64,000 bases of DNA from Macrocystis pyrifera. Lineage: Eukaryota > Sar > Phaeophyceae > Laminariales > Laminariaceae. Shown piece after piece: positions 16,260 to 64,000 of the stretch. Where the stretch lies: contig JASSKH010000010.1 in the NCBI GenBank assembly GCA_031763025.1, forward strand, positions 12,045,427 through 12,109,426. Direction: 5' to 3'. Each line of letters opens with the position of its first letter. Position 1 is the stretch's first letter. Below the pieces are notes generated by a model. That model did no database searches, had not been told where the DNA came from, and saw nothing but the letters and a program-made list of their open reading frames with translations. The position numbers and the translations under genes were made by a program.

Positions 16260-16934
16260 ACGACGTGTAGAACAACTCATGGTCGAGGGGTAGATATGAC
16301 TGGGTGCTAATTACTGTAGTGCATACCACCCCGGACGGGGAATGTAAGAACCGTTTGATATTGATATTGATGCCCAGACGTTCCTTAGATTCCTGTCCAA
16401 ACGGTCCTTAGATTCCTGTCCAAACGGTCCTTAGATTCCTGTCCAAACGGTCCTTAGATTCCTGTCCAAACGGTCCTTAGATTCCTGTCCAAACGGTCCT
16501 TATATTCCTGTCCAAACGGTCCTTATATTCCTGTCCAAACGGTCCTTATATTCCTGTCCAAACGATCCTTAGATTCCTGTCCAAACGTCCTTGTATTCCT
16601 ATCCAAACGGTCCTTATATTCCTGTCCAAACGGTCCTTACACACCTGTCCAAACGGTCCTTACATTCCTGTCCAAACGGTCCTTATATTCCTGTCCAGAT
16701 GGTCCTTATATTCCTGTCCAAACGGTCCTTATATTCCTGTCAAAATGGTCTTTATATTCGTGTCCAAACGGTCCTTATATTCCTGTCCAAACGGTCCTTA
16801 TATTCTTGTCCATGGTGAGGAATATACCCGTAGAGTCTTTCGTGGACGTGTAACATTGCCGGCGGAGAAAAATCGAAACTAAGGACTGAAAATATGGAAA
16901 AATGGTGTGGTACAGCCCGGGCTTGCGTAATTCT
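16260..16934 (+). repeat. Diverged left edge of the tandem array
   Basis: Matches the unit ends at 41850-42092 and 63170-63426 (for example TAGAGTCTTTCGTGGACGTG at 16832 and again at 41988) but with much divergence. A minisatellite expanded only here accounts for the extra length. Confidence 0.7.
16380..16815 (+). repeat. 23-bp minisatellite, about 19 copies
   Basis: Unit CGGTCCTTAGATTCCTGTCC plus AAA, head to tail. Early copies carry TTAGATT and later ones TTATATT. Only a single degenerate unit exists at the matching place in the other copies (near 41950 and 63285). Confidence 0.95.
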
Positions 16935-17950
16935 CGGGGCTGTTCACGGGTCAGGACCCGACCTGCGGGTGGGGTGAGGAAATGTTCTAAATTTCACAGA
17001 TCGCATCGGGTCGGGTCAGAAGATCTTCACAGACCACGGGTTGGATCGGGTCGGGTTGGGTCAAGAAGTTTTCAGATTTCACGGGTAGGGTCGGGTTCGG
17101 CCGGGTTGGGTCGGGTTGGGTCAAGAGTTTTTCAAATTTCACGACTCGGGTCGGGTGGTGTCAGGAGGTGATAAAAGCTCACAGGTCGGGTCGGGTCACG
17201 AGCCGCGAGAAGCTGGCCACTTGCGGATTTCGGCACGACCCGCGACTGTTTTCTGCTGACCCGCGGATCCAATACTTCAAAACACTGTCCGCTTTCTGCC
17301 CAAGAAATTATCTCGTACCAATACTCATTGATCGTACTCCTTTGGAGTCATATTCAAAAACAATAAAACACTGCCAAGTCTATTTACGAATGTCCGTATG
17401 TATCCATACCCACTAAAGCCAGGCCACATATCACTGCGGGTTACATAAACTATGACTAAGTTGTGTTTGAGATGCCGACCCACGGGCCGGATCCGCGAGT
17501 CGAGATAAATGTTCTCGCGGGTTGAGGGGACCGGATCCGCGACATGACTCGTATCTGACGGGTCAATCGGAATCTGGCGGATCGGGTCGAGTCAGGAGGT
17601 GTTCAAAACCTCACGGGTCAGGTGGGGTCGGGTCAAGAGTTTTTCAAATCTCACGGGTCGGGTCGGATCAGGAGATTTTCAAATCTAACGACTCGGGTTG
17701 GGTTGGGTCAGGAGGTTTTCGAACATCACGGGTTGGGGCGGGTCGGGTCAAGAGATTTTCAACCTATCGCGGGTCGGGTCAGGTCAGGCCAAGACATATA
17801 ATTTTTTTCGCGTGTCGAGTCGGGTCAGGGGTCAGGTCAAGACATCTCAAACTGTTCGCGGGTCGAGTCGGGTCAGCTGGCTCGTCCTATCCCGATATGA
17901 CCCGACCCAACCTGACGCGTGACGTTCGACCTGCCCCGCGAATAACCTTG
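16935..17950. mobile_element. hAT-like element with GGGTCGGGT arrays, copy 1
   Basis: Ends are CGGGGCTGTTCACGGGTC and the inverse of CAAGGTTATTCGCGGG. Flanks GTAATTCT (16927-16934) and GGAATACT (17951-17958) agree at 6 of 8 positions. The body is tandem GGGTCGGGTCAGG-type words with short TTTTCAAATCTCACGGG spacers. No transposase. It is longer and more diverged than copies at 42093-42650 and 63427-63971. Confidence 0.65.
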
Positions 17951-19545
17951 GGAATACTCGCCTACAGTAGCTTGAATCTCGCCCGAAACAACACGCGAGC
18001 GGGAAGGTACGCCACGCCGACAGTGGAACACCGCTGGTATCGAGCAGAGCGGTGACAAGCGCCTCCTCCCGCATATCGTCGTGACAACGGTCTAGTTGCG
18101 GCGGAATATCTATATCAGTTGAGGATGCAGCACCGCGCTTTTGCCGCAAGGTACTACCGTAAGCAAGTTGTTGTTGATTGTGTCGTGCATCAAATCTCTT
18201 GCGTGTTCATATTCTAAAAATCGAGCATACGCCATGCAGCTGGTCTCTTCTACCCCTTCCCCATGACCCTTCACCGTCTCTCCACCTTCGTATATCGACC
18301 CCTCATGCACCCCTCAGCCTTGCATTTGTTTGCCCCTCTCCCTCCCCGCCCATTGGCCTTGGCTTGCCGACCTCCACCCCCCCGCGCGCATAACTCCCTC
18401 TGCCTTGCAGTTTTTGACCCCCTCCCCCGCTTGCTTTCTCATCCCGCGCGTCCTGCCGATGCGCTCGACCACTTCGCAACATCACCAGCAAGTAAGCCGT
18501 GTTGCGATCAATAACGGCAGCTGCAGAATGTGTATCAAGCCAAACTTCTGTCCCACTATGAGTACTCCGCAAAGTACTGTGATCCTCTTCCAAGTACGTC
18601 ACAAAGTGGCGCTGTGTAAAGTCACATAGCACCAGAAACTGATTGTTCGACATGGCTTGGGCCCAAAGGTACAGATCATACATTAGTTTGGCGCTCTTGT
18701 CAACTCCCGAACTGCAACGCGTGCTGTTGAAATGGGTTTATACCTTCTCTCCTCATCGTCAAAAACCAACGCCTCAAACCAACGCCAGAAGCTGACATCC
18801 CGCCACGTGCCAGGCCAATTGTCTCTACTCTAATAGAAGCCGACACATGGCACGCAACAGTAAAAAAACACGGTCCAACATCTGCCTCGAAGTCGCTGAC
18901 AGAAAACGCCTACTGCGATGCTATATGCCCCCGTGCCATCACTATCACGTCCCTGGTCATTAACCTCTAGCCGGGGCCAATGATGTAGACACACGGGATA
19001 CAACCAGATAGGACAAACACGTAACGATTTCGCAGCGCCATCTGCTAGGTAGCCCGGCCTTGTCGGCTTGAAAATCGTCTACGCTCGAAAACCACCTTCT
19101 TCAAGAACCACCCTCTCCCAGAAATAAAATCAATAACCATCAGAGGTAGATGTTGGGGGCGACCCAACCGTACTGCCCCGGTCGCGCATCCAAGCTCTCT
19201 CGCTGCGCCCTGTACGGTCAGAGGTCGGGGACGTTGCGGGCGCGTCGGGGAGACGAGGAGAGAGCGAGGGGGGGAGGGTCAGGCTTGTTCACGATATACG
19301 AAGTATACTGTGCTCCGTTGGTGCTTCTGTTGAGGAATATTTCACGACGTACTGCTCCCACGTACGGCGCGGTGAACGCTTCAGGGCAACCGTTCTCAGG
19401 AGGGCACCGCACGCAAAGCGACGGCGAGGAAAGGAGAAGGAACAATGCTGACGCCGAGGGAAAAAGGCACGGGTTGCCGCTTTCTCTCGCGCATCGCACC
19501 TCACCAAGCATCGGTACGATGAGGTAACTTTAAACAACACTGAAC
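17951..19545. other. Head of unit 1, no recognised gene
   Basis: A 42-codon ATG frame on the minus strand (near 18110-18235; MAYARFLEYEHARDLMHD) and a longer minus frame at 18303-18683 (AMSNNQFLVLCDFTQRHF, VWLDTHSAAAVID) persist in unit 2 with few changes. I recognise neither. The second has a faint retroelement flavour but no diagnostic motif. Confidence 0.35.
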
Positions 19546-20742
19546 TCACTGGGTGGGCGCCGCACCGATGCCGAAACCGCTACCGGTAAGTGGCGGCGCT
19601 ACAGGAAGCGAGGCCAAAAACGCGGGCACCGCTGCCGCCTGCATTCCCGCCGCCGCCCCTTGCGCCACCACCACTGCTGCTGGTGTACTGGCCGCCTCCC
19701 CGTTCTGCGCCCTCTGCGGCACCGCCGGGGGTGTGGCCGGTTCGCCGGGCCCGTGTAACGAGTCCGCTGGGGGGGTGGTCGCCACTTCCGCCTTCCTTGC
19801 CGCGGTCCCTTCCGCCTGCCTTGCCGCCGCCGCCGCCCTCCTCGCTTTCGCCTTCGCCCTTGCCCCCGCCGCGGCCTCCCACAACTCCATCGCGTGCGAC
19901 ATGCGCTTCGCCTTCCACATTGCCACGTCCTCGTCCCGTTCCTCCGTCGTTCGGAAATTGGTCCTGCACCTATAAGGCGACGGTTTCGGGAACGCCGCCT
20001 CCGTCTTCCGCATCGCCGCCTTTCTCGCAGACACCCTTTCCTTGTCTGGGGTCGGTGCTAACCCCGGCCTCGGTCCCGATACAGCCGACTCTTGCCGCGC
20101 GTGCGTGGCGGCGGCGAGTGGAGCTGGTCCCAGATTCGGCGAGTACCTCTTCCTGGGCTGAACGGAAGGATAGTGTCGAGCAGCTACGCTCGGGAACGCC
20201 GCATCCGCCTTTCTTGCCGCCGCCTTTCTCGCCACCGCCCCTTCCTTGTCTGGGGTCGGTGCTAACCCCGGCCTCGGTCCCGATACAGCCGACTCTTGCC
20301 GCGCGTGCGAGGCGGCGGCGAGTGGAGCTGGTCCCAGCTTCGGCGAGTACCTCTTCCTGGGCTGAACGGAAGGATAGTGTCGAGCAGCTACGTTCGGGAA
20401 CGCCGCATCCGCCTTTCTTGCCGCCGCCTTTCTCGGCACCGCCCCTTCCTTGTGTGCGGTCGGTGACAACCCCGGCCTCGGTCCCGATACCGGCGACTCC
20501 TGCCACACGTGCGCGGCGGCGGTGGTCGGAGCTGATCCCGGATTCGGCGAATACTTCTTCCTGGGCTGAACAGAAGAAAAGTGTCGAGCAGCTACGCTCG
20601 GGAGCGGGCGCGGTTCTGGTAGAGCGTGTGGCCTGTCCATAGCAAAATCGGAGGGAGAAATATGTACATGTAGGGCGAGTAGGGACGCGGAATTAAAGCC
20701 GGTAAGGTCGTAACAAAGGGGCAAGGGGGGAGGGGAAGGCAT
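19546..20742 (-). CDS. Unknown 398-aa ORF with three 68-aa tandem repeats
   Basis: Open from ATG at 20742 to TGA at 19546. Residues encoded by 19986-20597 are three head-to-tail repeats of 204 nt, each with VAARHYPSVQPRKRYSP, SAVSGPRPGLAPT and RKAAARKADAAFP. After them come CRTNFRTTEERDEDVAMW, an Ala/Arg/Lys-rich helix that could form a coiled coil, and a low-complexity Ala/Pro tail. No signal peptide, membrane segment or known domain is seen. The protein is basic, suggesting nucleic-acid binding, which is inference only. It lies divergently beside a Copia fossil, so it may be transposon cargo or an unrelated gene. The matching region in unit 2 is not open along its full length. Very high GC makes long frames likelier by chance. 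Confidence 0.4.
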   Translation of the reverse strand: MPSPPPLPLCYDLTGFNSASLLALHVHISPSDFAMDRPHALPEPRPLPSVAARHFSSVQPRKKYSPNPGSAPTTAAAHVWQESPVSGPRPGLSPTAHKEGAVPRKAAARKADAAFPNVAARHYPSVQPRKRYSPKLGPAPLAAASHARQESAVSGPRPGLAPTPDKEGAVARKAAARKADAAFPSVAARHYPSVQPRKRYSPNLGPAPLAAATHARQESAVSGPRPGLAPTPDKERVSARKAAMRKTEAAFPKPSPYRCRTNFRTTEERDEDVAMWKAKRMSHAMELWEAAAGARAKAKARRAAAAARQAEGTAARKAEVATTPPADSLHGPGEPATPPAVPQRAQNGEAASTPAAVVVAQGAAAGMQAAAVPAFLASLPVAPPLTGSGFGIGAAPTQ

Positions 20743-20839
20743 CCTTCGTGGCCAAAAGCGGCTCGAGCGTACGCTGGAACTGAAACAGACATCGACTCTC
20801 TCCCCCGCTTGCACTCCGCGAGCGGGGCTTGTTCTCGGC

Positions 20840-21310
20840 CTATGAACCGCCCCTCTTTAGCGTACGAGACAAGCACCTTCAGCTTGATTGGCGAGTGGGT
20901 CGGTATGGCATGCGAATTCTCCTTTCGTGCTCATCGCGCTACATATCTCACATCGTGGGATCGGTACTTTTCCTTGCACAGGTCACGCTTCAAGACATAT
21001 GCTATTCGGTCAACCAACTAACCAGAAGATACAGCACGCCAGCGATGGTACACATTGCCGCTGCCAAACACCTACTTCGATACCTCAAAGGCTCGCCGGA
21101 TCCGGCCATTATCTACGAGAAGGGACAGTTCGCCATGTACGGGCACTCCAATGCTTCGTTCGCAGCAAACCCGATTAACAGGAGGCCGACTACAGGCTAC
21201 TTACTTCTCCTCGATGATGGGCGTTTGCCACGTTTCCAGTTGTCAACCTGCCAGTTTCAAATCCCATACACAGCGGCACAACCGCTAGATCCTCGCACCG
21301 TAAACTTCGT
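20840..21310 (+). mobile_element. Ty1/Copia retrotransposon fossil (RT end and RNase H)
   Basis: Translated sequence has the Copia hallmarks ICYSVNQLTRRYSTP, AAKHLLRYLKGSPDPAI and RRPTTGYLLLLDDG. Broken element: gag, protease and integrase are not recognised nearby and no LTR pair is assigned. The unit 2 copy is at 45620-46100. It predates the unit duplication. Confidence 0.85.
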
Positions 21311-22654
21311 TATCACGATCTGAACTTTCATGGGGGGTCGCGTTCAGGGCGAGAAATGGCTCACATGAGCGGCGGGAAATCCTCACCTATACTGATTGTT
21401 TCTCCCGCACTTGGTGCAAACGTTCTTTGCGGTTTGTGGTTCGACGCTCTTCATCGTACAAGACAGACGCTACTTTTGTTATGAACGACACATCATGGGA
21501 TTGTAGAACGCCCCGTTTCTGTGCGTGTGTCTCATCCACTCACCCGACCAGGTGACTGCTGCCGCGGCTGCTCGCTCTCGCGCTGCTCAGTCAAGCCCAA
21601 GCAGCGCTCGAAGACGATCGTGCGGCGTATTTGACCCCGGGACCGAACTATTACCGTGTCTGTCGGTTGAGGGTAAACCATCTGCGGACATATGCAAACG
21701 TGCGGACGGCGGCAAACGTAGGGAGACGGGGTGGGGTGGAATGGACCTGTAAAATGTCTATTGCTCAATCCGTAGCGTGTTTCTTCCCATACGATATATA
21801 GGGTTGTACTGTAGTGCTTTCTGAAGCATTTGGGGTGCCGGACAAGTGAGACCGATCAGTAGCCCAGAAATATAGCAACCTGTTGCAGTAGAGTGATGGG
21901 TCGGCCGTTTAGAGACGGCTATTGTTGTTGAATGCTTCCTCACCACCAGAGACAGTGCGCCGTTGTGCTACGGGGCCCGCGATGTGCGTTTCTCTGGCGT
22001 TTCGCGTCAGCCAAGCGGTACTCGATGACAGCACCACGCCAGCAATACAATGGACCAGAACAGTGGCTGACTCGACATGGCATGGAACGCCTCCGTTGGT
22101 CTCTGTCGCGCTGTCGGATTGCTACGCTCTGTACCCCTCTGCTCTACACCACAAGTGCACGGCCAAAGCTTGTCGCCATCAGTATGGAGTGTAGTATTAA
22201 TTTAATAGAGGTAACTATATCACAAGCGCTAAACGCTGCGGCCCGTCTATAGCATGTAGGGCTCCTGGGTGAAGACGGGTGGGTTCAACTACCAGTATGG
22301 CGAGGGGGTATCGCAACGTTATGATACTACTGACAGACCTCCAACCAAGCGCAACGCATGCTGTAGGTTTTTCTGCCCGAAGCCTCCCACCGCACCTCAA
22401 CGTGAAGCACCTTTCGCAATCGGTACTCTCCAAAACGGTGTGACGGTGATTCCCTAGCAAGCGGTCTGTCGGTTGGCGTGCCCGTGGCTGCTTCGCCACC
22501 GCGCGAAACTCCCCTCGGACAAGCTGAACGTAGAGGCCCCACCGATGGCTAGAGTATGATACAATGTATGATTAAGGGCACGGACGGTCGCCAATGATGG
22601 AGGGAACTAGTTCAAGTGTCGCAGGCGCTCGGACGTTTCGAGATATTTTGCGCC
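21311..22654. other. Unit 1 stretch after the Copia fossil
   Basis: No gene recognised. A plus frame at 21540-21752 after an acceptor-like CGACCAG is identical in unit 2, which is expected from recent duplication. The region may include more retroelement remains. Confidence 0.35.
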
Positions 22655-24505
22655 GTCGGGACCATGCTGCTGTTGTTACTGGTGTAGATAGCTACGTACG
22701 GCATCACGGTTGGCTCAAGGAGTTTTTTGCAGAGCCAATATCATAATAATCTCACGACCGATGTAATGTACTGCAGGACTCGCTCGCAGAGTGGGGTATT
22801 TTGATCCACGGCTTCGCGACACTGACGGGAGTCATCTGCGGTCGTTCTGCCCCGGGACCAGACAGCGTGTAATCTCCAACAAAGTATGCATTGCGTGCAA
22901 TCCTGCACAGAACATCTAGGCCCGGTGCCGCACACTCCAAGCCTGCTCCTCAACCTCTTACTGTAATAGCTGGAGCTGGATTATTTCTCGCTGCGATTAT
23001 GTTCAAAGCTGCATGCACTAAGTACCAAGGATGCTGCACCGCTATTATATACCAGGTATGCCGCAAGCTCGCAAAGCAAAAGAAACAAAAATAACGGGCA
23101 GCATGACTCACGTGCTCTTCACGCAGTCAACACACAGCAGTACGTTTCTGGGGGCGGCAGAAGTAGGTGAAGTGGTGTGGCCTTCTGCACGCGCTACTTG
23201 CAGCGATTGCAGAGGATAAGAAAGATAATCATGCATCGGTAGCCGTGAGGCGGTCAAAAATGCCGCGGCGAGGGGGTGCAAAAAAACACAAAAATCTCGG
23301 GAGGAAGAGATTTCTCTCCCCATATTTCTCCCTGTCACGTGCACTATTACTGTAGGACGTACGGATGGAACTTGAAACGCTGCGGTCCGACCATTGTACG
23401 AGCATGGTACATGTCGTTTCTACTGTAGGACAAAATAGGTAAATTGAGGCACTGTTGTACAGCGCGTAGGTGTCGCAACACCACGGACCTCAGCCAACAG
23501 CAAACACGATATATAATTGTACAACGTCGAAAAAAAAAAGCGTCTGCACTGCATCCACCGCACCTCATTGAGAGCCATCCTGCCCGTATCTATCCCACTC
23601 CGTGCGGCGGACAGGGTCGGTGCCGTCCAATCACACAGAGCGGGCGCTTGCCTGCGTGCTTCCCCCCGCGTTGCAGCCCCCGCTGCCGTACCGACCGTCC
23701 CCACCGTCGCTGTCCCTTGGTTGGCCGTCGCCCTCTCGGCGTTGTCGAGGCGCATCTGCTCCAAAAGCCGGTCAGACGGTAAACCCGTCCCCTCTCCCGG
23801 AGGTGGGCGTGGCTGGTTGCACAGGTTGGACCAGGCCAGCGTTTGGCACCGCCTCGTACGCGGGCGGATTGCACCCACCGGAGCCGCGGGCGCTGATGGT
23901 GCTGCTGCACGCGAGGTCGGCGTGGCCGTCGTTGGGTCGTCCCCGCTCCTCAATAGCGGACCATACTGTTGGGTGGGATGGAGGGCATCGTTTGTCGGCG
24001 AACGATGGAGGAAGAAAGCGCTTCAAGTGAGGCACTCGTGTGCACACGTTGGGACAGAGATGTTTCGTTGGAAACTGTCATCATGAACGATCATAGTATG
24101 CAACTGCTGTGGCATCGCGGTTGACTCAATCAAGGAGTTTTCTGGCAGCGGCAAAACCAGAATATCATACTTACCAGTACAGTTTATGTAATGCTGCACT
24201 TAGGCTTTGCAATGATCCACGGCATTTGGGACACCGGTACTATGCTGCGGTTGTTCTGCTCTGGTAAAGGGCAGCGTGAAGCAACAATCGCCAAGAATAT
24301 TTTTCTGTTGAATGCAATTCTGCAGAGGTCCTCTAGATGTGGTGCCGCCATGGTCAAAGATTTACTTGAAAGTAACCATGCTTGCTATACTACTGCACAT
24401 CATGGGCAGAGCTGAATTACTCTCGCTACGACTACATTCGAAGCTACACTACAAGTACGGACCAACGGATGCGTATTACTGGTCGCGGTAATTACCGGTA
24501 AAAAA
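22655..24505 (-). mobile_element. LTR-like fossil: diverged direct repeats around a GC-rich core
   Basis: About 22655-23080 and 24085-24505 are direct repeats, diverged by roughly a third by eye (shared words include GATCCACGGC and CAAGGAGTTTT). The 1-kb core between them is GC-rich. No reverse transcriptase is present. Size and structure suggest a non-autonomous LTR element, old and broken. The unit 2 copy is 47424-49260. Confidence 0.4.
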
Positions 24506-25017
24506 TACCAGGTACGGTACGTAGAGCTTGAGGATTGTTTTTTGGAGGAAATTCGGTATGTCCCCCCCCCGACGGCCACGTATAGCATGAGTACACCCCC
24601 TCCCTTCCCCATTCCCAATACACATACAACGCTTGCCGAGCATGGATCTCCCCCAAAAAAGCTTCGTATACCGCCTGCCAGTCTTTGCCGTGTTTTCGAA
24701 CCACCAGTCAGTAAACATACCAGATAAAGTACTAAAAGTGGTACGAGTGAAGGGGGTCCGCACTGCTGTGTTGCAAGCAAGTCAACAAGAGCAACCAAGT
24801 CAACGAGGGCATGCAAACGTCATGGAATAATCGTCTGAAGTCAAATACTGCTTGAAGCTTCAGATCTTCAGATATTAGCACGGTTTCATGTGCGGTGGAA
24901 CCCCGAAAAGGTGATTTGTGATTTGGCGAGGAATATCTGTGTGTGTGCGTTTTTCTGGTGTAGTTCCAGTTTTGTTTTCACTTGTACGGCATCTCATAGG
25001 ACATGGTCGTACCGCGT
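24506..25017. other. Unit 1 spacer
   Basis: Contains a GAGTACACCCCC stretch (about 24560-24610) resembling the tail of the R1 repeat, and no gene. The TACCAGGTA word is at 24506. Confidence 0.4.
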
Positions 25018-26563
25018 GTACTTAAACATACACATATTTACGTTTATCCTTTTTTTTACTTGAATACAAGCACCTACCTCGCGCTCAGCGAGTCGACCAC
25101 GATTTTTTGTCGCTTCTATGATCTTCGCTTTCTTCGCGCTCTTTTTTTGGTTTCTTTGCGTGCTTGCTTATCGTGCCACACTTTTTTTCCCGGAAAACGA
25201 AAAACAAATATCTCGGAAAAAGAAAAAGTCGATTTTGTTTTTTCAACGGTTTGGCAGGCTCTCTTTCGCTTTTTTTCACCGGCTCGTTGATTTTTTTTTT
25301 GCAATTTCAGTTATTTTTTCCTTTTTTCTTCATTCGTTTCGTGTGCGTGCGTATACTCGGAGCACGGCACCGCGGGCGAGCCCGGCGCCGTCGCGGGTGT
25401 CAGCGGATGCTGGCGAGTAGAGGGAGGGTTGCAAGGAGCGCGGTCGCCGTTTTCGTGGCTAGGTGTCGCGTGTGCTTGGAGACACGAGGGAAGCATGAAT
25501 GGGCTCTCTCTGGCCTCCATCTGAAGGATTAGATTGAGTACGTACGGATCTATAAGAGTCGTTCGGGATTGCAACATAAGATTCACGCGTTGCTTGTTTT
25601 TTTGCGACCTATCACAGAGAGAGCTACGCAGTATGAGCACCGACATTGTCGAGCTGGCGAACGAGGGTCACGGTGAGCACCGGGCTTCACGCGGGGCGGG
25701 CGACGGGGCTCACTGTGACAGAGGCGGAGGAAAGCTTTACCCGGACCGGATCGGTGGCGAGGTGGTCGCGAGAGGGGCGGGCGGCGCACGAGGCTGAGAG
25801 AGAAGCTCTGCTGCTGTTTTTTTTTTCTTTTTTGACCGGTGCAAGGTGTTCCAATCAGGCAGAAAAGTTTTACATGAGAGGGGACGGTGGGGGTTTTTCT
25901 TTCCGGAATTTAGCTATACCCGGACCTGATCGGTGGTGAGGTGATCGCGAGAGGGGCAGGCGGTGCACGAGGCTGAGAGAGAAGCCCTGCTGTTCGATTA
26001 TGTTTCTTTTTTGACCGGTGCAAGGTGTTCCAATCAGGCAGAAAACTATTACATGAGAGGGGACGGGGGATTTTTTCTTTCCGGAAATTAGGTTTCATTT
26101 TTATTGTTTTGCGGTGCTGTTGCTGTGCCGTGCCGTGCTTTCTCTTTCGTACATATATACCACGTACATACAGTATATCAAAAGAAGAAAATAAAATCCC
26201 CTAACTGGGGTATGTACGTACGTACGGCATGCGGCATTCGGGTTGTTTTCCTGGGTGGAGAATGGAGCTCTTGGCGTTTGCAAATCGCCTGTTCGCACCT
26301 AATTGTTTGGGCCGTCTGTTCTGTTCCCTTTTTCTTCCTAGTGAGCGTAGCGAGCGGACGACGCGAAGCGTATGAATGTGGCGTCCGAGCTGTTTTTTCC
26401 TGAAGCATGGCGGCGGGACTCTTGGCATTGTCAAGTCGCCAGTTTGCAACTACTGAGTAGTATATTCAATCACGAACCTCTGTCCGCTTCGCATGCTTTG
26501 ATGTATTTTTCCTTCCTGACCGAGCGCAGCAGATGCCGCCCGCGGAGCGAAGCGCCTTGTATC
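25018..26563. mobile_element. Block present only in unit 1 (about 1.55 kb)
   Basis: Unit 2 runs straight from GTGTAC to ATCATACG near 49777-49790 where unit 1 has this block. It is T-rich on the left, then holds two 178-bp tandem repeats (25733-25911 and 25912-26089) with GACCGGTGCAAGGTGTTCC, then a second pair around GGAGCTCTTGGCGTTTG (26265) and GGGACTCTTGGCATTG (26417). Terminal repeats were not found, so an insertion in unit 1 or a deletion in unit 2 are both possible. An exon-like start (ATG at 25634, MSTDIVELANEGH before a GTGAGC) lies inside. Confidence 0.6.
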
Positions 26564-27676
26564 ATACGTACGTGTATACTTTGGGGAATGCTATTTGCCA
26601 GGGCGTTCCTCGGGATTTTCCCGCGGGATTTTTCTCGCGGTTGTGTGCGGCATTTCGGGATAATCCCTTGGCCTCGTGATAAATGTTAAATCCTGTGCCC
26701 TCACCAACAGCGCGTCCCGTGCCAATTCTAAGATCCCGCTCCCGCGTCATGAAAAAGTATAGATCCCGTTCCCGTACAAACACGTCGCGCACAAATAGCA
26801 ATATCCCGTTCCCGCACAAACAGGTCCCGCACTAAAAATGACACGGGGCCTTTCTCGGGTATGATTTTGGAAAAAAAAATCCTGCGGGATTTAGCCACCT
26901 CGGGAATTCACCGTTTTTTTTTTTGCCGGAACTGGCCTCCACGGGAACCGTTCCCGCGGGAACTCGCCACCACGGGAAATCACAGGGTTTTCTGTACGGG
27001 AACCGGCCGCAACGGTAAAAATTCCCGCGGGAAACGGCCACCACGGGAAATCGCTCTCTGTCTTCGGGGTTGTGTCGTTGGGGCGTTGAAGCCACACACC
27101 GAACACAGAACAGGGACCCCTCTGGTCTCCATCATCTGAAATGGTATTCCGCTGAGGGGATGTTCACAATGTTGTCATTCTGTACCTTTTCAATATCAAA
27201 TAATTGAAACGTGCACAAAACCGTACTTTTAATTTTAAATTTTGGTGTTTTATTTCATTTGGATATTTTTGTTATTTTGTTTATTTTAGCAATATTTATA
27301 TTGGGACCTGGGTGCCAGAGTAATATACCTGGTATTGTATAAGGAAAATTCTTATGCCGTTGGATTTGCAGTCAGTTGAGAAAAAACTTTCAGCACGTTC
27401 GCATGAGCCTTTGCCCCGGAAATGTTGGAAATTGGTTTTTCTCGCCTCAGAATGTGCCTAAGAATTCTCTCCAAGATCTATCTGGCGGTGTTTCCCGCTT
27501 CTCCAGGCACCAAGAAACAGGAAATAGCCGTCCGCGCTTGTTTCTATCCAACGGGGGTCAAACGCGATCCAAACCCCCGATCGCAATCAATCATAGTTAC
27601 TTCATTTGGATCGAAAAAGTGTCGACGGTAATTTCTTCCAACTGGGCTATGTTAAGGTCCTATTAATAGTCCGTCG

Positions 27677-28798
27677 GTCTCTCCCGCCTCTCTCGTAGCT
27701 TACACCGCGTGTAGCCACGACGGGTCGCATCGGGCCCTCAGTTGCCGCCCCCCCCCCCCCTTGGTATTCCTAGTTACGTATTGTACCAGGACGAACATCC
27801 CGTTGTGCCTTCACTACCGCGTTTCCTTGACGTTCTCCATCTCTGGCACGACTGCTGCCCCTACCAGAGGTGTCTTAGCCTCATTTACGAGGTGTGGGTT
27901 GGTCTATGATCTCGTTAGTCTGTCGTTTGTTTTGAATAGCAGTATCTTCGACCCCCCTCTTTCGATTTTTCTGATGTCTTAAATAGCCATCTCTATATCG
28001 TCGTGGGATCTGCATCTACGGCTATTCAGGGTGGGCTAATGTGATAGAGTACCTTGGTTGGTAGTCAATAGACCAACCATCAGTAGGGGCCGTTAAATAT
28101 TATTGTTCCAGTCGGGTCGTACCCCGTTTACCATTTTGATATCTGTAGATACCCAGGCTATTATTGTTCCAGTCGGGTCGTACCCTGTTTACCATTTGAT
28201 ATCTGTCGATACGCAGGTTAGTATATCTGTAGACACGCAGACTGGTATACCTGTAGAATCTGATATGCAGGTTAGCAGGTTGTACTATTGAAGCTGAGAA
28301 TAACACATGCACCCTTACGGGGTGTTGTACTATTGAAGTTTAGAGTATCGTATGTTCCCTTATGGGTTATTGTACTATTGAAGCTTAGAGTAACGCATGC
28401 ACCCTTACGGGGTGTTGTACTATTGGAGTTGAGGGCAACGAATGCACCCTTACGGGGCGTTGTACTATTGAAGTTGAGGGCAACGCATGCACTTTTACGG
28501 GACGTTGCACTATTGAAGTGAGGGTGACGCATGCACCCTTGCCAGTAGAATATAGCCGGTTGAAGCTAGAGGATTCTCCTGGCTTCAAAAAGCATGTGCT
28601 CCCCCCCCCCCCTCTCTCCTCACTCTTCTCACTTGCCCCTTTTGAGCAAGCCTTGCACCAATCAAACAAGAAAACTCCAAAAAGAACTAGGTCTGAGTTT
28701 GACCAAGCACAGACACCTGTGTCACACTTCTTCTGTGGATCATCATCCCGTGGAACCCTTACTGCTCTCCCACTCTCACGCACCACACATCACATACT
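27677..28798. other. Nested block in hAT-like element, unit 1 only, with minisatellites
   Basis: About 1.1 kb missing from unit 2 (junction near 50890). It contains two 61-bp repeats with TTCCAGTCGGGTCGTACC (28107 and 28165) and a 42-bp minisatellite of about six units (28270-28545) with GTACTATTGAAG and CGCATGCACCCTTACGGG. Confidence 0.7.
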
Positions 28799-29107
28799 GG
28801 TAAAAGGTTAACCGATCGTCTACCCAATCTATGCCTTGTAACACTCTCCCCCCTGGAACGGACCGGATATTATACGGGTCCACGTGCCACCAACACGCGG
28901 TTCCAAGTTTTGGGGGATCCACCAGTATTTTTTCAGATCGTTGACATGAGGAAATTCACTTGTCTTTTAAAAATCGATTTCATGGTGCACGTGAGATTCG
29001 AACCCTCGACGAACGACCCAATTTTTGCCGATGATGCCATATGTTAAGGTATTGGTCCGTTGGACTACGGGTAAAAGGTTAACCAATCGCCTACCCAATC
29101 TTAGCCA
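28799..29107 (-). repeat. tRNA-derived SINE-like sequence, unit 1
   Basis: On the minus strand an A-box-like TAGTCCAACGG and a B-box GGTTCGAATCT lie 52 nt apart, as in class II (Leu/Ser-type) tRNAs. The T-arm is nearly intact but the acceptor halves do not pair, so it is not a working tRNA. Direct repeats of about 38 bp (AAAGGTTAACC, CCTACCCAATC) flank it at 28799 and 29069. Confidence 0.55.
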
Positions 29108-29112
29108 TATAA

Positions 29113-29878
29113 CAGCTCCTCGAGAAGCGGGAAAAAAAAACACCCCCAGATGAATCTTGGGGGGAACTCCGACACATTCTGAGGCGAGAAAGTGTCAAGC
29201 AAGATCAAGAACGGGACATCTTGTACCCCTTGTTATTTAGGTTTGCCTATTGAGCAGGTATTCGTCGGGACTCACGTGTGTTGTTTACTTAAGAGGTGGA
29301 AGAAGAGCAGCTGCACTCTTTTCGTGCACGATGAGAGACTGAGAGCAAGGCTCGTGCCTCGCCCCATCTAAGACACGCCTCCCAAGTACCACAAATGCGA
29401 TCCCAATACCTGCACCCAGAAAAGTTATTACTGACCGTTCAGCCTCATTCAAAGCAGTACCATAACAAAAGACCATTTCCTACATTTCCGGGGCACAAGC
29501 TCACGCGCACGTGGTGAAAGGGACTTTTTCAACTGACTGCGAATCCGACGGCATAAGAAGCGGCCCAACTCCATAACTTGTAGATTTACAAAAATACAAA
29601 TTGTAATTTAATGTTGTGCCAGACCTCGAACTGCTGTATGTACGTGTATTTTATTAACATTAATAGATGAATACGAACATTACATCTTATCAACTAAATA
29701 ATACCATATCATACGTACCTGGTAGGTACGTACGAGTACTCGTAGCGTCCCCGGGTGTATGTGCTGATACCGTTTAATGATCCCTTGCACGCTGAAGACA
29801 CGGGAATGATTCCCGCGGGAACGATTTTTTCCAGCAGTTTTGGTTTGTTCGGGATTGGGGAAATAGATATTTCCACGG
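29113..29878. other. Second nested block in hAT-like element, unit 1 only
   Basis: Absent from unit 2 (junction near 51212). About 85 bp (near 29475-29560) is an inverted, diverged copy of 27352-27437. A 63-codon minus frame from ATG (29476 to 29285) includes a membrane-like stretch ITFLGAGIGIAFVVLG; I do not recognise it. Confidence 0.55.
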
Positions 29879-30475
29879 GATTTTACGGCACGTAATCGGA
29901 AAACCACGGGAAATCAGACAATTCCGCGGGAACTGCTGTTTGGATGGGAACGGAATATCAAAATGTCTTCGGGAACTGTTTAGATGGGATCACGGGAACG
30001 ATACATGCACAGGAATGGAAAAAGTAAAGTTTTCCGGTGAAATCCTGCGGGATTTTTCCCGAGGAAGGCCCTGCGCAAAACAACCCCCGAGTGAACGTTT
30101 GCACTTCACTCGCGGGGACAGTTACGAACAGCTCCCCACAAAAGCCCACAACGAACGAAATTGGGTCACGTTTCTCATGATGAGGTGCGTGAAGGTGTAG
30201 GATGACCCACACAGCGGTCGAAGCCAGCTAGAAATCCCGTGGTCCCGTGATAAACGGGATATTTAAAATCCCGTTCCCACACAAACGCGTCCCGCACACA
30301 TTATAATATCCCGTTCCCGCGCCACGGAAAAGTGTAAATCCCGTTCCCGCACAACACGCCCCGAGGTGGCCGCATCCCATACAAATAGTGCCGTTTAGTC
30401 CCGGGGTGACTGAGTCCGGTGGGATATCGTCCCGGAGTCGAGAAGGCGTTCCGAGTGATGAATGCTGCGATTTAC

Positions 30476-32105
30476 GATACCCGTGTAGGTGTCGTAAATG
30501 GGCTCTCATTCACGACATTCACGACACCGCGCCACGTTTGCGGTACATGCCCTGAATCGGCCCGGGACTGCCACGGCTATGTTGGCGTGATGTAAAGCTG
30601 TCCACTATCCACTATCCACTATCCACTACCAGGTATCTAGTATTGTTGAAGCTACGTAGCTTGTACCCGAAACGGTCCAGTGTCCGAGGATATACGTGGT
30701 AACCGACTCAACCCTCAGAATATTCAGACCAGTGTCTGTGGTAAGTAGAAATAAGCGTTAATCACGACAGACACCAGTATCGTAATTATTAGAGCTGTGA
30801 GCACTGGCACAGTATCTACTGGCAGTACAGTTTAGTAGTAGTAATCTACTGATTGACCCGAACCAACCAGTACATTCGCCAACAGTTTCATTTTACGTAT
30901 GTATGTATGTTCAAGAAACATGCCACATATAATTTTTCAAGGTACTGAAACCCACCAAATGCGTTTCTGGAGGAGGGAGGGAGAGAGAAAAGAGGAACTC
31001 CGGCTGTTGGCCCTTTTGACGCGTTCCCTTCGTTTTTTCATGTTTGGTCTCTTTCTTTGCGTTGAGTGCCTCTCATACCTGATACCGGTTACATTTACGT
31101 AGCGTTCCTTCGTTGTTTGGGATTGTTTTTTCGTTTTGCTTTTACTTTTGTTCATCATCTGCACTTTTTCTCGTTTCCTTCTGTTTGCAGGTGATAGCCT
31201 AATACATCTATTCTGTGCCCCAAGGGTAAGAGCGATGGAGCAACATTAAATGTCAGAGCGCCTTGTTATGCACTTGCACGAAAACCAATGGCATGATGAA
31301 GATCGCCACGCATTACGATATTTGTCCTGTTGTTTTTTTTTCTTGGTTTTTCCTACGTAGTACCATGATGATGACCTCATCAACCCCCGGCCAAAAAGCA
31401 GTTTAGGGCCCGATGGGGAATGATTGAATGAAGCGAAAACGCCTGTTTTTTTTCCCTCCGATGACGCCTCCAGCGGGCCCCCCTCACCAGTCGGGGGAGA
31501 ATTGGACGAGCTACGCTCGGCGTTAGTCGCTTCGCTCGGCCAGTATACTGCTGTAATTCAGTACATACACTACCAGGTACTGATTTTTTTTTACGACAGC
31601 CAGTTCAATCGCTACTACTATTACTGTGCTGACTAAGTCAGTCTGTCTGTGCTCAGCCTTTATCGTAAATGTATGTGCTATTAATACGAACATGACGCCC
31701 GTGTCGCAAGCATACGCATGTTAATAGTTTGTTTCCGTATCGTGCGACACCACTGCACGTTCTTGGCAGTTGGCACACACACCACGGGTCGGCCACACGC
31801 GGCCTGCCTGCCTCGGTTTGCTTGCGCTGGCATGGTGCAGGGCTATACCATCAATGTCTTGGTGTAGGGCTATACCATCAATGTTAGTATTATAGCACCG
31901 AAGCTACAAGAAAGCGTCGTCTGCCCAAAAATGACAAATCAAGCGTTCGTCGACGAGATAATAATGATGAAAGCAGTGCATATCTACAGCATAAAATAGT
32001 AGAAGCATACCGGTACCTATGGCACATACTACAAAAAGAAGGACCGAACTGATTGCAACAACTAGAGAGAGATTTCGCTTGTTGTCCACGCAGGCAAAGT
32101 CACTT
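30476..32105. other. Unit 1 stretch between hAT-like element and LINE
   Basis: No gene supported. TCCACTA tandem copies sit at 30600-30625. A typical intron 3-prime end (pyrimidine run, TTTGCAG at 31187-31193) is followed by a 20-codon frame that stays open in unit 2 despite a 6-bp insertion; without an upstream exon I do not call it. Confidence 0.35.
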
Positions 32106-33550
32106 GTTGAAAATCGTCGCGTGCTGCCTTAGCAAGTACTGCGACACCGAGGGATTACCCAGGGAGGAACAGTGCGGCTTCCCCCTCGCACTATCAACGA
32201 GTGATATGTTGTTCGTCGAGCGCCGGTCGCCAGAGCTCGGACCACAGAGGAAAATCCCCCCTGTACGTGTGCTTCGTCGATCTGCAGAAAGCGTACGACT
32301 CTGTCAACCGAGAGCTGCTGTCGGAGGTACTCACACGCTCTCTGGCGTACCAATCAAGCTTACAATTATCTGCATTTTCACGTCGGCATGCGGGCTCGCG
32401 TGCGTGCGTACGGATGACGGCGAGCACTCGGAATGGTTTGAAGTCACGCAGGGGCTGCGGCGAGGCTGCAGGCTATCACCGTTACTGTTCAATGTGTTCT
32501 TCGCTGCTGCGTTACACGTGGTACTGGTAAGCTTCAGCAAAGACGAAGCCATCGTCAGGGATTTGGTTCAACTCAATGATGCTGGAGTAGTCGCAACAGA
32601 AGGGAGGAGCCGTTGGCATGCGTGCGAAGGACTTTGATGGGCATGTAGTACGCCGATGACGCAGGAATTAATTGTCTCGAAGTCGGCTAAAGGGCTCGCG
32701 GAAAATTATGGCAGTCATCGTGACTGTCTTCGAAGCAGCAGGCCTCGCGGTATCGGCAAAGAAGACGGAGATAACCCTTCTACGAACGCCAGACCAGACA
32801 ACCCTCGCCCCACCGCTCGTCATCGAAGCAGCAGGTCAGAGGTATAAACAGACGGCCCAGTTTTTATACCTACAGGCCGCATCGTCCACGAAAATGCTGA
32901 CCTCTCGCGCGAAATCGATCGGCCGATCCGTCTCATGCGGGCATGCCTCAAACGATTAGGCCCAGAGTTGCTTGATAGGACGACCGCCCCGATTAGCCTG
33001 AAAGTTCGAATGCTGCAGGCCGAGGTGATTTAGACCCTGTTGTACGGTTGTGTAACGTGGACCCTCAGAGCGGAACACTTTGCCAAGCTTCGAACGGCTC
33101 ACCACCAAGTAAGTCCTCTTGTGAGTCATTGGCTTCCAGCGCCGACTCTGTACTGACCACGCCACACCCTCTCCTACGCGAAGGCCCTCAGGATGACACG
33201 TTGCGAGAGCATCGAAACGATCATCCGGAAACCGCCGCTCTTTTTTGCGGGGGTCGTGGCACGGCAAAGCGAAGAGCGATTACCCAGTCGGGTAATGTTC
33301 GGGACGATGGCTGGCGGGGAGAACCCGAGACCTGGCGGACGGTTTAAGACTTGGCACAGATGCATAGTCGAAGACCTTACGTAGGGAGTTCGGAGCCACC
33401 ACAAGGTCAACGGAACTTGCCCCCTTTGTGTTTGGAGTTGAGACCGCACTGTCTGTGGTCCATTGCGGTAAAAAAGTCAGGGAAGCGGTACCGGGGGGTC
33501 CTTGAAGCAGCCGAACGGTTCGTGGTGAGGTGGCACAAGCAGTCGTACTC
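32106..33550 (+). mobile_element. LINE reverse-transcriptase fragment, unit 1
   Basis: Shows EEQCGF (fingers), motif A as a degraded YVCFVDLQKAYDSVN, motif B region GLRRGCRLSPLLFNVFFAAA, motif C context YADDAG and a thumb region (LVIEAAGQRYKQTAQFLYL, LKVRMLQAEV). Several frame changes and a stop just before the YADD box show that it is dead. The 3-prime flank has TTTTA repeats (33640-33660). Endonuclease not seen. The unit 2 copy at 53480-54920 is slightly better preserved. Confidence 0.85.
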
Positions 33551-34415
33551 TGTTTATATGTATAGTATGAAGTGGTGCTGTGTCTTCAGCTCGTTCTTTT
33601 TAAGCGTCTGTCACATCTCCTGAAGGGAGACACGACATATTTTATTTTATTTTATTTGTTCTCTATTATTTATTTCTCTGCTCTCTGTTTTTGCTTTGTT
33701 GTTTGTTTGTTTGTTTGTTTCTTTCTTTCTTTTGTTTCTCTCTTTCATAGAATGTGTAAGTCGTGCATGCCGTATCCATTATTAATACTCGTACATGGCA
33801 TTGCGTTGTCTACTCTTCTTACTGCATAACAATGTACTACTGGCTGTAGTATCCCTGTGTCGTAGGTTTGTGACCCACAGAACTTGTATCTCGCTATTAA
33901 TAGGACTGAAGAATCGGCACGGACACCGGTTGTGCTGGATGTCGACGGGTAGAACAGAACGGTTTAATGTGAAGAATACGCTATTATTAAATGATAGGAA
34001 CGTGTACGTATTATTATTAATATTCGTTAATACTGATATACATGGAACGTACTATACTGCTTGTATCATACGTGTACGTATCATACCCTGGTACTGATGT
34101 ACCTATATTACACAACAGACAGGTAGGGTTGCGCCGTTGTGTGCCTTGTCATACGTATACGTACATACGTGGTACCTGGTGCCAGGTGTAGAGTTCTTCG
34201 ATCTGGGATGGATCCTCAAGAAGAACCGTTGCAACTTTTTACTTTTGCAACATCTGATGGAAGTCTGAAATCTGATCCGCGTTGTTGTTATTGATACTAT
34301 AGATGCTCTCTCTCGCACAGCATGCAGTACTAACTGCTGTAGTCTAATGCAGAATGTACGTGTAATAAAAGATTAAATGGTGACTAAAAAAGAGTCAATC
34401 TGTGTGGCTCTAGAT
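33551..34415. other. Unit 1 spacer with R2 repeat and TA-palindrome indels
   Basis: TTTG/TTTC simple repeats (33700-33735), the R2 repeat at 33846-33980, then TACGTA- and ATTAAT-rich sequence where the two units differ by several small insertions. No gene. Confidence 0.5.
33846..33980 (+). repeat. Dispersed repeat family R2, unit 1
   Basis: Same 120-bp core as at 11490-11613, with the GTCGACGGGTAGAA end. It carries an extra ATTAATA near 33896 that the intron copy lacks. Confidence 0.75.
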
Positions 34416-37893: not shown

Positions 37894-37948
37894 CTGGAAA
37901 GCATATGCGTAACGGGGGTAGGGGGGGTAAGGGGGGGGGTGCGAAGGC

Positions 37949-38131: not shown

Positions 38132-38134
38132 AGC

Positions 38135-38247
38135 TTCACCCCCTCCCCCTGACTGGCTGGTCGGTGGAAACCCGACGTGCTCCGTCCCGGCATTGTAGGG
38201 ATGCGAGGGTCTATGGTCATATGACTACGGCTAGCATGATAATGAGT

Positions 38248-51810: not shown

Positions 51811-53479
51811 GATACCAGTGTAGGTGTCGTAAATGGGCTCTCACGACACCGCGCCACGCTTCGCGGCACATGCCCTGAGTCGGCCCGGGACTGCCACGGC
51901 TGTGTTGGCGTGATGTAAAGCTGTCCACTATCCACTATCCGCTATCTAGCATTATCGTTGAAGCTATATACGTAGCTTGTACCCGAAACGGTCCAGCGCT
52001 CGAGGAAATACGAGGTAAACGACTCAACCCTCAGAATATTCAGACCAGTGTCTGTGGTAGGTAGAAATAAGCGTTAATCACGACAGACACCGGTATGGTA
52101 ATTATTAGGGGTGTGGGCACTGGCACAGTATCTACTTACTGGCAGTACAGTTTAGTAGTAATCTACTGATTGACCCAGCCGGTACATTCGTCAACAGCTT
52201 TATTTTACTTATTATGTATGTTCAAGAAACACGCCACATATCATTGTTCAAGGTACTGAAACCCACCAAATGCGTTTCTGGAGGAGGGAGGAGAGAGAAA
52301 AGAGGAACTCCGGCTGTTGAGCCTTTTGAAGCGTTCCCTTCGCTTCTTCATGTTTGGTCTCTTTCTTTGCGTTCAGTGCCTCTCATACCTGATACCGGTT
52401 ACATTTACTAAGTAGCGTTCCTTCGTTGTTTGAGATTGTTTTTTTTTTATTTTCCTTCTGCTTTTGTTCATCATCTGCACTTTTTCTCGTTTCCTTCTGT
52501 TTGCAGGTGATAGCCTACTATTAATACATCTATTTTGTGCCCCAAGGGTAAGAGCGATGGAGCAACATTAAATGTCAGAGCGCTTTGTTATGCACTTGCG
52601 CGAAAACCAATGGCATGATGAAGATCGCCACGCTTTACGATATTTGTCCTGTTGTTTTTTTCTTGGTTTTTCCTATATAGTACCATGTTGATGACCCCAA
52701 CAACCCCCGGCCAAAAAAGCAGTTTAGGGCCCCGCCCCGATTGTGATGGGGAATGATTGGATGAAGCGAAAACGCCCTGTTTTTTTTTTCCTCCGATGAC
52801 GCCTCCAGCGGGCCCCCCTCACCAGTCGGGGGGCAATTGGCCGAGCTACGCTCAGCCGCGTCACTCTGCTTGGCGTACCTCGCTCGCTTCGCTCGGCCTT
52901 AGTCGCTTCGCTCGGCCAGTATACTGCTGTAATTCAGTACATACACTACTAGGTACTGATTTTGTTTTTACGACAGCCAGTACAATCGCTACTACTATTA
53001 CTGTGCTGACTGAGTCAGTCTGTCTGTGCTCAGCCTTTATCGTAAATATTTGTGCTATTAACATGAACATGACACCCGTGTCGCAAGCATACGCATGTTA
53101 ATACTTTATTTCCGTATCGTACGACGACACCACTGCACGTTCTTGGCAGTTGGCACACACACCCCGGGTCGGCCACACGCGGCCTGCCTGCCTCGGTTTG
53201 GTTGTGTTGGCATGGTGTAGGGCTATACCATCAATGTCTTGGTGTAGGGCTATACCATCAATGTTAGTATTATAGCACCGAAGCTACAAGAAAGTGTCGT
53301 CTACCCAAAAATGACCTATCAAGCGTTCGTCGACGAGACAATAATTATGATACCAGTAAATATCTACAGCATAAAATAGTACAAGCATACCGGTACCTAT
53401 GGCACATACTATAAAAAGAAGGACCGAACTGATTGCCACAGCCACAGAGAGATTGCGCTTGTTGCCCACGCAGGCAAAG
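51811..53479. other. Unit 2 stretch between hAT-like element and LINE
   Basis: Counterpart of 30476-32105. An extra TTCGCTCGG-rich insertion sits near 52870-52900. No gene supported. Confidence 0.4.
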
Positions 53480-54920
53480 TCACTTGTTGAAAATCGTCGC
53501 GTGCTGCCTTAGCAAGTACTGCGACACCGAGGGATTACCCAGGGAGGAACAGTGCGGCTTCCCCCTCGCACGACCAACGAGTGATATGTTGTTCGTCGAG
53601 CGCCGGTCGCCAGAGCTCGGACGACAGAGGAAAATCCCCCTGTACGTGTGCTTCGTCGATCTGCAGAAAGCGTACGACTCTGTCAACCGAGAGCTGCTGT
53701 GGGAGGTACTCACACGCTCTCTGGCGTACCAATCAAGCTTACAATTATCTGCATTTTCACGTCGGCATGCGGGCTCGCGTGCGTGCGTACGGATGGCGGC
53801 GAGCACTCGGAATGGTTTGAAGTCACGCAGGGGCTGCGGCGAGGCTGCGTGCTATCACCGTTACTGTTCAATGTGTTCTTCGCTGCTGCGTTTCACGTGG
53901 TACTGGTAAGCTTCAGCAAAGACGAAGCCATCGTCAGGGATTTGGTTCAACTCAATGATGCTGGAGTAGTCGCAACAGAAGAGAGGAGCCGTTGGCATGC
54001 GTGCGATCGGCTGTAATGGGCATGTTGTACGCCGATGACGGGGGAATTAATTGTCTCGAAGTCGGCTAAAGGGCTCGCGGAAAATTAGTGACTGTCTTCG
54101 AAGCAGCAGGTCTCTGACGGGGTATCGGAAAAGAAGACAGAGACAATGCTTCTACGAACGCCAGACCAGACAGCCCTCGCCCCACCGCTCGTCATCGAAG
54201 CAGCAGGCCAGAGGTATAAACAGACGGCCCAGTTTTTATACCTACAGGCCGCATTGTCGACGAAAATGCTGACGTCTCGCTCAAAATCGACCGACGGATC
54301 CGTCTCATGCGGGCATGCCTCAGACGATTAGGCCCGGAGTTGTTTGATAGGACGACCGCCCCGATTGGTCTGAAAGTTCGAATGCTGCAGGCCGAGGTGA
54401 TTGAGACCCTGCTGTACGGTTGTGTAACGTGGACTCTCAGAGCGGAACACTTTGCCAAGCTTCGAACGGCTCACCACCAAATAAGTCCTCTTGTGAGTCA
54501 TTGGCTTCCAGCGCCGACTCTGTACTGACCACGCCACACCCTCTCCTACGCGAAGGCCCTCAAGATGACACGTTGCGAGAGCATCGAAACGATCATCCGG
54601 AAACCGCCGCTCTTTTTTGCGGGGGTCATGGCACGGCAAAGCGAAGAGCGATTACCCAGTCGGGTAATGTTGGGACGATGGCTGGCGGGAAGAACCCCAC
54701 ACCTGGCGGGCGGTTTAAGACTTGGCACAGATGCATAGTCGAAGACCTTACGTAGTAGGGAGTTCGGAGCCACCGAAGGGTCAACGGAACAGCCCCCCTT
54801 GGTGTTTGGAGTTGAGACTGCACTGTCTGTGGTCCACAGCAGCAAAAAAGTCGGGGAAGGGGTACCGGGGGGTCCTTAGAGCAGCCGAACGGTTCATGGT
54901 GAGGTGCCACGAGTAGTCTT
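53480..54920 (+). mobile_element. LINE reverse-transcriptase fragment, unit 2
   Basis: EEQCGF, motif A (LYVCFVDLQKAYDSVN, in frame with the former), motif B (GLRRGCVLSPLLFN), motif C (MLYADDGG near 54019) and thumb motifs (LKVRMLQAEVIETLLYGCVT). Frame changes after motif A and downstream show it is inactive. Similar to LINEs I know to be common in brown algal genomes. Confidence 0.87.
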
Positions 54921-63125: not shown

Positions 63126-63426
63126 GTCGTCACGTATACCAGGTATGTGAGTATGTTGATGCGGTGAGGTGTCGTAACTTGTAGCGCACAGGCGTGGTCG
63201 CCAGTAGATATATCTGGGTGATACTATAATTAATGCATACTGGACGGAAATGTAAGGACCGTTTGGCTTTGATAAGAATGTCTAAACAGTCCTTGTATTG
63301 GCGTCCAGGGCCGTATACTGGTAGAGTCTTTCGTGGACGTGTAACACTGCCGACGGGGGGAAATCGAGAGTCAACGCTGAAAATACGAAAAATTGGCGTT
63401 TGTGCAGCCCGAGCTTGCAAAATATT

Positions 63427-63971
63427 CAGGGCTGTTCGCGGGTCATGACCCGATCGTCAGGATGTGTTCGAAATCGGGGTCGGGTCGGATCAGGAGGTGT
63501 TCAAAATCTCACGGGTCGGTTCGGGTCGGGTCAAAAGGTTCGAAATAACGCGGGTTGGGTCGGGTTGGGTGGGGTGGGGTCAAGAGGTTTTCAAAGCTCA
63601 CGGGTGGGACGGGTCAGGTCAAAAGATTTTCGAATCTCACGAGTCCGGTCGGGTCGAGGCAAGAGTGTTTTTTATCGTACCGGTCGGGTGGGGCCAGGAG
63701 GTGATGAAAAACTCATGGGTCGGGTCGGATCGGGTCGGGTCAGGAGATTTTCGAACATCACGGGTTGAGTCGGGTCGGGAGGTTTCCAAAGTTTCGCGGC
63801 CGGGTCGGGTCAGACTAAGCCATCTTAAAATGTTCGCGTGTCGGGGCGGCTCAGGGGTCAGGTTAAGACATCTCAAACTGTTCGCGGGTCGAGTCGGGTC
63901 AGCCGACCCGTCCCGTCCTGACCCGACCTAACCTGACGCGTGACGTTCGACCTGACCCGCGAATAACCTTG
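63427..63971. mobile_element. hAT-like element with GGGTCGGGT arrays, copy 3
   Basis: 545 bp, same ends as copy 2. Closes unit 2. Confidence 0.7.
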
Positions 63972-64000
63972 GGAATACTCGCCTACAGTAGCTTGAATCT
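63972..64000 (+). repeat. Start of a third tandem unit
   Basis: The last 29 bases repeat the first bases of units 1 and 2, so the array continues beyond the window or at least restarts. Confidence 0.85.

Follow-up and report, generated by a model that had tools for sequence, protein, structure and literature searches.

A stretch of 64,000 nucleotides from the giant kelp Macrocystis pyrifera (positions 12,045,427 to 12,109,426 of contig JASSKH010000010.1), the whole of which is here called the window, appeared to carry a head-to-tail array of composite units of more than 20 kb, with a GGGTC hAT-like element at each junction. Such an array raises the question of whether the copies are genuine or whether the assembler placed two haplotypes of one region in tandem and, if they are genuine, what keeps them alike. 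The original prediction, made from the sequence alone, described a layered array carrying host gene pieces and several classes of transposon, in which the hAT-like element may have supplied the homology for unequal exchange, and noted that two haplotypes in tandem would look the same.

The analysis reported here indicates that the locus is probably a locus-specific segmental duplication of the kelp genome, the copies of which appear to be maintained by recurrent unequal exchange and gene conversion.

The tandem array and its relatives

Comparison of the window with itself revealed two direct copies, unit 1 of 24.7 kb and unit 2 of 21.3 kb, preceded by a remnant at the left edge and followed by 29 bases that begin unit 3, the rest of which lies beyond the window; the predicted head-to-tail arrangement was therefore borne out. 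The boundary of a unit in a tandem array is a convention, and it was set at the GGGTC element because the divergence of the left edge switches there. Units 1 and 2 aligned over 20,995 columns with 877 mismatches (95.8% identity) and 119 gap events. The divergence was uneven, about 1% in two stretches (Table 1) and approximately 4-7% over much of the middle, which also held blocks near 2%, for example at 35786-37179. A model with three rates described the divergence better than a model with one (log-likelihood -3403 versus -3643), its third state merely catching clusters of mismatches. The three largest differences in length (1537, 1115, and 755 bases) were all extra sequence in unit 1.

On the scaffold bearing the window (C190, window at 12045427-12109426; the assembly comprises 223 sequences totalling 537,376,219 bases), unit 3 extended from 12109.40 to 12134.24 kb and stopped at unit position 39984. 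It carried a 5.8-kb long terminal repeat (LTR) retrotransposon (12122.3-12128.1 kb) with 242-base ends that were 98.8% identical and an open frame of 1677 residues that matched reverse transcriptase, RNase H, and integrase profiles and, weakly, a chromo-domain. Units 1, 2, and 3, designated array A, follow one another without any N as direct copies of more than 1 kb and more than 90% identity, which is the pattern of a tandem segmental duplication.

Three further units, array B, lay on the minus strand about 120 kb past array A, beyond a gap of 100 N at 12240575 that was the sole run of N in 12045427-12345000. The edge of array B, designated LB, occupied 12314.58-12313.21 kb, and its units extended to 12291.93 (B1), 12270.63 (B2), and 12252.94 kb (B3), the last stopping at unit position 35766. 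Array C (12443366-12476096) consisted of three minus-strand copies at 12443-12448, 12459-12464, and 12472-12476 kb, with spacings of about 16.0 and 12.3 kb. Pieces of array C were 92-99% identical among its copies, whose likeness to the units of arrays A and B was confined to a core, at 69-82% identity by block. A single old copy, D, which covers part of the start of the unit, was found on the plus strand at 12366353-12369818 in pieces of 73-79% identity.

The genome was searched with four probes from the unit; the searches omit very common words and score the best candidates only, so that counts of repeats are lower bounds. The probe at 36.0-37.2 kb, for which all 19 candidates were scored, recovered five full copies (units 1, 2, 3, B1, and B2), and each of the 17 matches on other scaffolds covered at most 141 bases. 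With the probe at 22.2-23.4 kb (12 of 12 candidates scored), six of the copies recovered were full or nearly so, and another six matches, of 70-75%, were partial and fell at the three places of array C. The probe at 17.95-19.2 kb (11 of 11 scored) detected the six units and D, together with array C as three partial copies of 74-75%; the matches of both probes were all on C190. The unit tail (41.2-42.1 kb) gave four full copies and LB among the best 40 of 2326 candidates, and the other 35 of the 40 matched a dispersed repeat within it alone (Table 1). Long matches to the four probes were found solely in C190 at 12.06-12.48 Mb.

Relationships among the units

Relationships that change in runs along the unit are expected under unequal exchange or gene conversion, and such runs were observed. 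Sites that pair the members of a quartet of units were arranged in blocks, with 80 switches versus 117 expected for units 1, 2, B1, and B2, 66 versus 177 for units 1, 2, B2, and B3, and 37 versus 65 for units 2, 3, 1, and B2. None of 2000 shuffles had as few switches in any of the three quartets.

The identities showed the same mosaic. At 34300-35766 and 37200-39180, unit 1 was closer to B1 and B2 (97.7-97.9%) than to unit 2 (95.7-96.3%); at 35766-37200 it was about equally near to both, and at both ends of the unit it was nearer to unit 2 (98.5-99.0% at 39990-42650). Over unit positions 20952-32951, units 2 and 3 differed in 4 of 8,576 columns; the difference was about 1% before and just after this stretch, 3-6% over 34952-38951, and 17% over 38952-39951. 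Except where unit 1 resembled B1 and B2, the copies were closer within arrays and their relationships shifted along the unit, as in concerted evolution.

The three blocks extra in unit 1 were also shared unevenly (Table 1). Block 3 holds one arm of an inverted repeat, the other arm of which lies in a stretch kept by all six units, so that a deletion in a lineage common to units 2, 3, B1, and B2 would be the simpler explanation.

Diverged edges of the arrays

The left edge of array A is, as judged from a three-way alignment, an old remnant of a unit tail with a sharp switch in divergence. Its element was identical to the element at the junction of units 1 and 2 at 417 of 536 positions, and the 5' flanks of the two agreed at 90 of 118. 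To the right of 17935, the identity to the junction copy rose to 245 of 250. When the left-edge element was compared with the other five junction copies, the identity was 73-86%, with one pair (left edge and LB, 5' part) at 67%. The other edges had diverged as well, LB being 84.8% identical over the unit tail and the right end of unit 3 77.8%, so all three edges were more diverged than the inner copies, as concerted evolution would have it. These values agree with the original prediction that the left-edge fragment is far more diverged than the units are from each other and that the array has a layered history, namely, a true direct array with an older, diverged left edge.

The left edge also contained about 19 tandem copies of a 23-base repeat (16374-16812), a run of a length not seen in the aligned junction copies.

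These observations can be accommodated by a scheme in which a composite unit of about 21 kb, without a detectable gene, would have given rise to three direct copies (array A) and three reversed copies (array B), with the three copies of array C and the single copy D as earlier relatives of its core. The copies would be maintained by recurrent unequal homologous exchange and gene conversion, which would homogenise their inner parts in patches, while the outer edges, which have no full-length partner, would drift. We infer that exchange made the mosaic, that the edges drifted for lack of partners, and that array B is reversed on the same chromosome.

Several considerations weigh against this scheme: 1) the pairing of unit 1 with unit 2 and of B1 with B2 leads overall, with 164 sites versus 38 and 39, which leaves much of the pattern to simple descent within each array, 2) the mean read of 15.8 kb is shorter than the unit, so the order or number of near-identical parts could be wrong, 3) array B lies behind the gap of 100 N and is placed and oriented by scaffolding, and 4) the haploid origin of the analysed assembly is presumed.

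The hAT-like element at the junctions

The predicted GGGTC element with inverted ends was confirmed in all three places, the left edge and the two junctions, with six end matches in the window versus a mean of 0.04 in shuffled sequence. The elements that end units 1 and 2 were identical at 525 of 528 positions. A genome search with the element, in which the best 40 of 1190 candidates were scored, returned six copies in the arrays and 34 others. The best match of each of these 34 was 73-77% identical and covered the last part of the element, stopping at query position 246-264 (mostly 251-257), where the right end of the element is at 251. Two dispersed copies that were examined had inverted ends and 8-bp target-site duplications that agreed at 8/8 and 7/8 positions. 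Short terminal inverted repeats and 8-bp duplications fit a non-autonomous hAT element; the target-site duplications of the three copies in the window are eroded, with only 6/8, 4/8, and 5/8 positions alike. No transposase turned up in six-frame Pfam scans of unit 1, although no search aimed at transposase was made.

The left-edge and junction elements match in both flanks and are therefore copies of one insertion already within the unit. The unit already carried the hAT-like element when it began to multiply, and this element may mark a limit of exchange at the left edge.

The elements could instead have caused the duplication, either through non-allelic homologous recombination (NAHR) between element-bearing repeats or through reversed-ends transposition as outlined for maize Ac (PMC3744419). 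Elements are present at the left edge and both junctions, the divergence switches at the right end of the left-edge element, and the three copies fit NAHR by the criterion outlined in that source. NAHR would leave the repeat at every junction and at the two outer ends of the array. Array A, however, ends on its right at unit position 39984, short of the element, and thus lacks the right-hand copy expected from exchange between repeats. In addition, no ends of the element (at most 3 mismatches) were found in the 30 kb of array C examined, though array C multiplied too. Reversed-ends transposition, under which the junction element should border unrelated DNA on the target side, is unlikely and was rejected: the 5' flanks of the left-edge and junction elements correspond (90/118), and this mechanism would not give copies of one insertion. 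Taken as a whole, causation by the elements is unlikely, with NAHR via the hAT-like element a possible route. The element may have supplied the homology, as originally suggested: it ends each complete unit and the left divergence switches at its end, but the right end of array A lacks it and its ends were not found in the examined part of array C.

Search for genes in the units

The original prediction placed host gene pieces in the units; neither Pfam domains, nor PDB matches, nor codon-position signals supported it. Six-frame Pfam scans of unit 1 detected no family at E 0.05 (E 0.01 in one scan), although such a scan is not fully sensitive, having missed two weak reverse-transcriptase pieces detected via short open reading frames (ORFs; Table 1). 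PDB searches, in which the minus strand of 17980-27999 was left out, gave no credible match. After correction, an excess of third-position changes across the six units was found in none of the 334 ORFs tested from unit 1 (430 listed) and in none of the 343 tested from unit 2 (381 listed). The codon test against one copy of array C was negative for all 74 ORFs and for 108 windows (none, p 0.87). No match to Rfam was obtained at the gathering threshold. A glutaredoxin domain (PF00462) near 13.6 kb, outside the units, was the only host domain above the cut-off in the parts scanned. The units thus contain no host exon visible to Pfam, PDB, or codon tests, and short exons could be missed. The prediction of several transposon classes was confirmed in part, by the hAT-like element, weak reverse-transcriptase pieces, and dispersed repeats.

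Several candidates were discarded. Two sets of weak PDB matches, 45 (best E 0.0012) and 8 (best E 0.0043), hit unrelated chains. All but two of these, one in each set, fell on stretches overlapping either poly-C/CCA tracts near 38.3 kb or, near 34.5 kb, the ATCACCACC repeat; they are probably tag-like matches of low complexity. A match to TMEM126 (E 0.0033, below the cut-off), one to TraL (E 0.043), and two weaker short-ORF matches were set aside. The ORF at 20784-21320 may be a Copia piece but had no Pfam match.

A repeat of AAACC with about 52 copies lies at approximately 13370-13680 of the window, directly before the stretch that matches glutaredoxin.

The array might nevertheless be kept because the core has a function, as a non-coding RNA, a source of small RNA, or an element of chromosome structure, with selection on its copy number. 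Three arrays at a single locus carry multiplied copies of the core, the probe searches found it nowhere else, and parts of it hold 82% identity to array C when others fall to 69%. Against this, the codon tests and the Rfam search were negative, and uneven identity is also explicable by local exchange. It is improbable that the core is a fast-evolving kelp non-coding locus selected for copy number, the arrays of which were rebuilt at least three times here and in both orientations.

Reliability of the assembly

The giant kelp reference was described as derived from a single haploid female gametophyte, sequenced with PacBio reads of mean 15.8 kb at about 100x and scaffolded with Hi-C (PMC10498591). 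The same source gives a G+C content of 50.37% and discusses a candidate sex-determining region on its scaffold 2. By base counts, the window contains 50.8% G+C.

The copies may be true and yet wrong in number or order, since the reads are shorter than the unit. The mean read of 15.8 kb is to be set against a period of 21.3 kb, units 2 and 3 are almost identical over 8.6 kb, and a gap of 100 N precedes array B. On the other side, the near-identical stretch of units 2 and 3 is shorter than the mean read and has distinguishing differences on its flanks, and unit 3 is set apart by an LTR insertion not shared with the other units and by its right part; an error of this kind is unlikely.

Two haplotypes of one region set in tandem would resemble units 1 and 2 in that their likeness is within reach of divergent haplotypes and their differences are patchy. 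If the assembly is the haploid gametophyte reference, its source is neither diploid nor mixed, and there was no second haplotype available. Moreover, there are six units, not two, and the two arrays stand in different contexts. The 16 kb that precede array A on its left had only scattered repeats in common with the 30 kb at the matching end of array B, as did the right flanks of the two arrays (megablast pieces of at least 400 bases). The left flank of array A (14000-16250) was found as one full copy in the genome, with no other scored candidate (best 40 of 2771) covering more than 551 bases. False duplication, the possibility left standing by the original prediction, is therefore very unlikely, as judged from ploidy, copy number, and flanks.

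Two stretches of the left flank (5738-6872 and 11953-12516) recur many times in the 300 kb examined, the longer matches being 84-96% identical.

Comparison with known systems

The duplication resembles primate core duplicons in that a core has been duplicated repeatedly around one region, within larger composite units and in both orientations, but in the kelp no gene was found in the core, copies were found at one locus only, and the host is a brown alga. It has homogenised patches inside and diverged edges in common with tandem arrays under concerted evolution, such as those of the ribosomal DNA type; unlike these, the unit is very large, each array has three copies, no gene was detected, and the homogenisation is partial. 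Known hAT-bordered duplications also have hAT-type elements at their borders, whereas the copies of the element in the kelp have both flanks in common and are missing from the right border. Near-identical adjacent copies are shared with false haplotypic duplications, from which the kelp array differs in its presumed haploid source, its six units, and its non-corresponding flanks.

Searches of the open-licence literature returned no title describing the kelp array; they were not locus-specific and are weak evidence of absence. If the present interpretation is correct, the locus is a large duplication resolved at the sequence level, with copies that exchange sequence, in an apparently haploid brown alga assembly. 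Six distinguishable units, an LTR insertion datable from its own ends, and older relatives of the core would then allow the exchanges to be ordered without confusion with alleles. The locus also illustrates that an alarm of false duplication can largely be resolved through ploidy and the context of the copies.

Features of the window

Table 1. Positions of the units, their edges, and the repeats and elements within them, in window coordinates.
Feature	Positions	Strand	Remarks
Left edge, diverged remnant of unit tail (unit ~41861-42650)	16280-17950	+	three-way alignment; unit 1 directly after; right of 17935, about 97% identity to the start of unit 2
hAT-like GGGTC element, left edge	16935-17950	+	inverted ends; flanking 8 bases 6/8 alike
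Unit 1	17951-42650	+	24.7 kb; self-comparison and alignment
Stretch of ~1% divergence, units 1 and 2	18497-21748		alignment of units 1 and 2
Core common with array C, first part	18734-20940		alignment to array C
Core common with array C, second part	22693-24362		alignment to array C
Block 1	25022-26558		in unit 1 and B3, absent from units 2, 3, B1, and B2; partly dispersed repeat
Block 2	27680-28794		unit 1 only (1/6 units)
Block 3	29114-29868		in unit 1 and B3, absent from units 2, 3, B1, and B2; one inverted-repeat arm
Reverse-transcriptase piece, weak	32053-32634	+	RVT_1, E 0.0095, below curated cut-off
Stretch of ~1% divergence, units 1 and 2	39988-42650		alignment of units 1 and 2
Dispersed repeat of ~285 bases, unit tail	41507-41793		35 of 40 scored candidates (of 2326)
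hAT-like GGGTC element, end of unit 1	42093-42650	+	inverted ends; flanking 8 bases 4/8 alike; right end close to where dispersed copies stop
Unit 2	42651-63971	+	21.3 kb; self-comparison and alignment
Reverse-transcriptase piece, weak	53433-53906	+	RVT_1, E 0.00029, below curated cut-off
hAT-like GGGTC element, end of unit 2	63427-63971	+	inverted ends; flanking 8 bases 5/8 alike
Unit 3, first 29 bases	63972-64000	+	continues outside the window to 12134.24 kb of C190

Each unit also contained a tandem repeat of 204 bases in three copies (19986-20603 and 44771-45395 in the window), which had long open frames in several reading frames and was also matched in array C.

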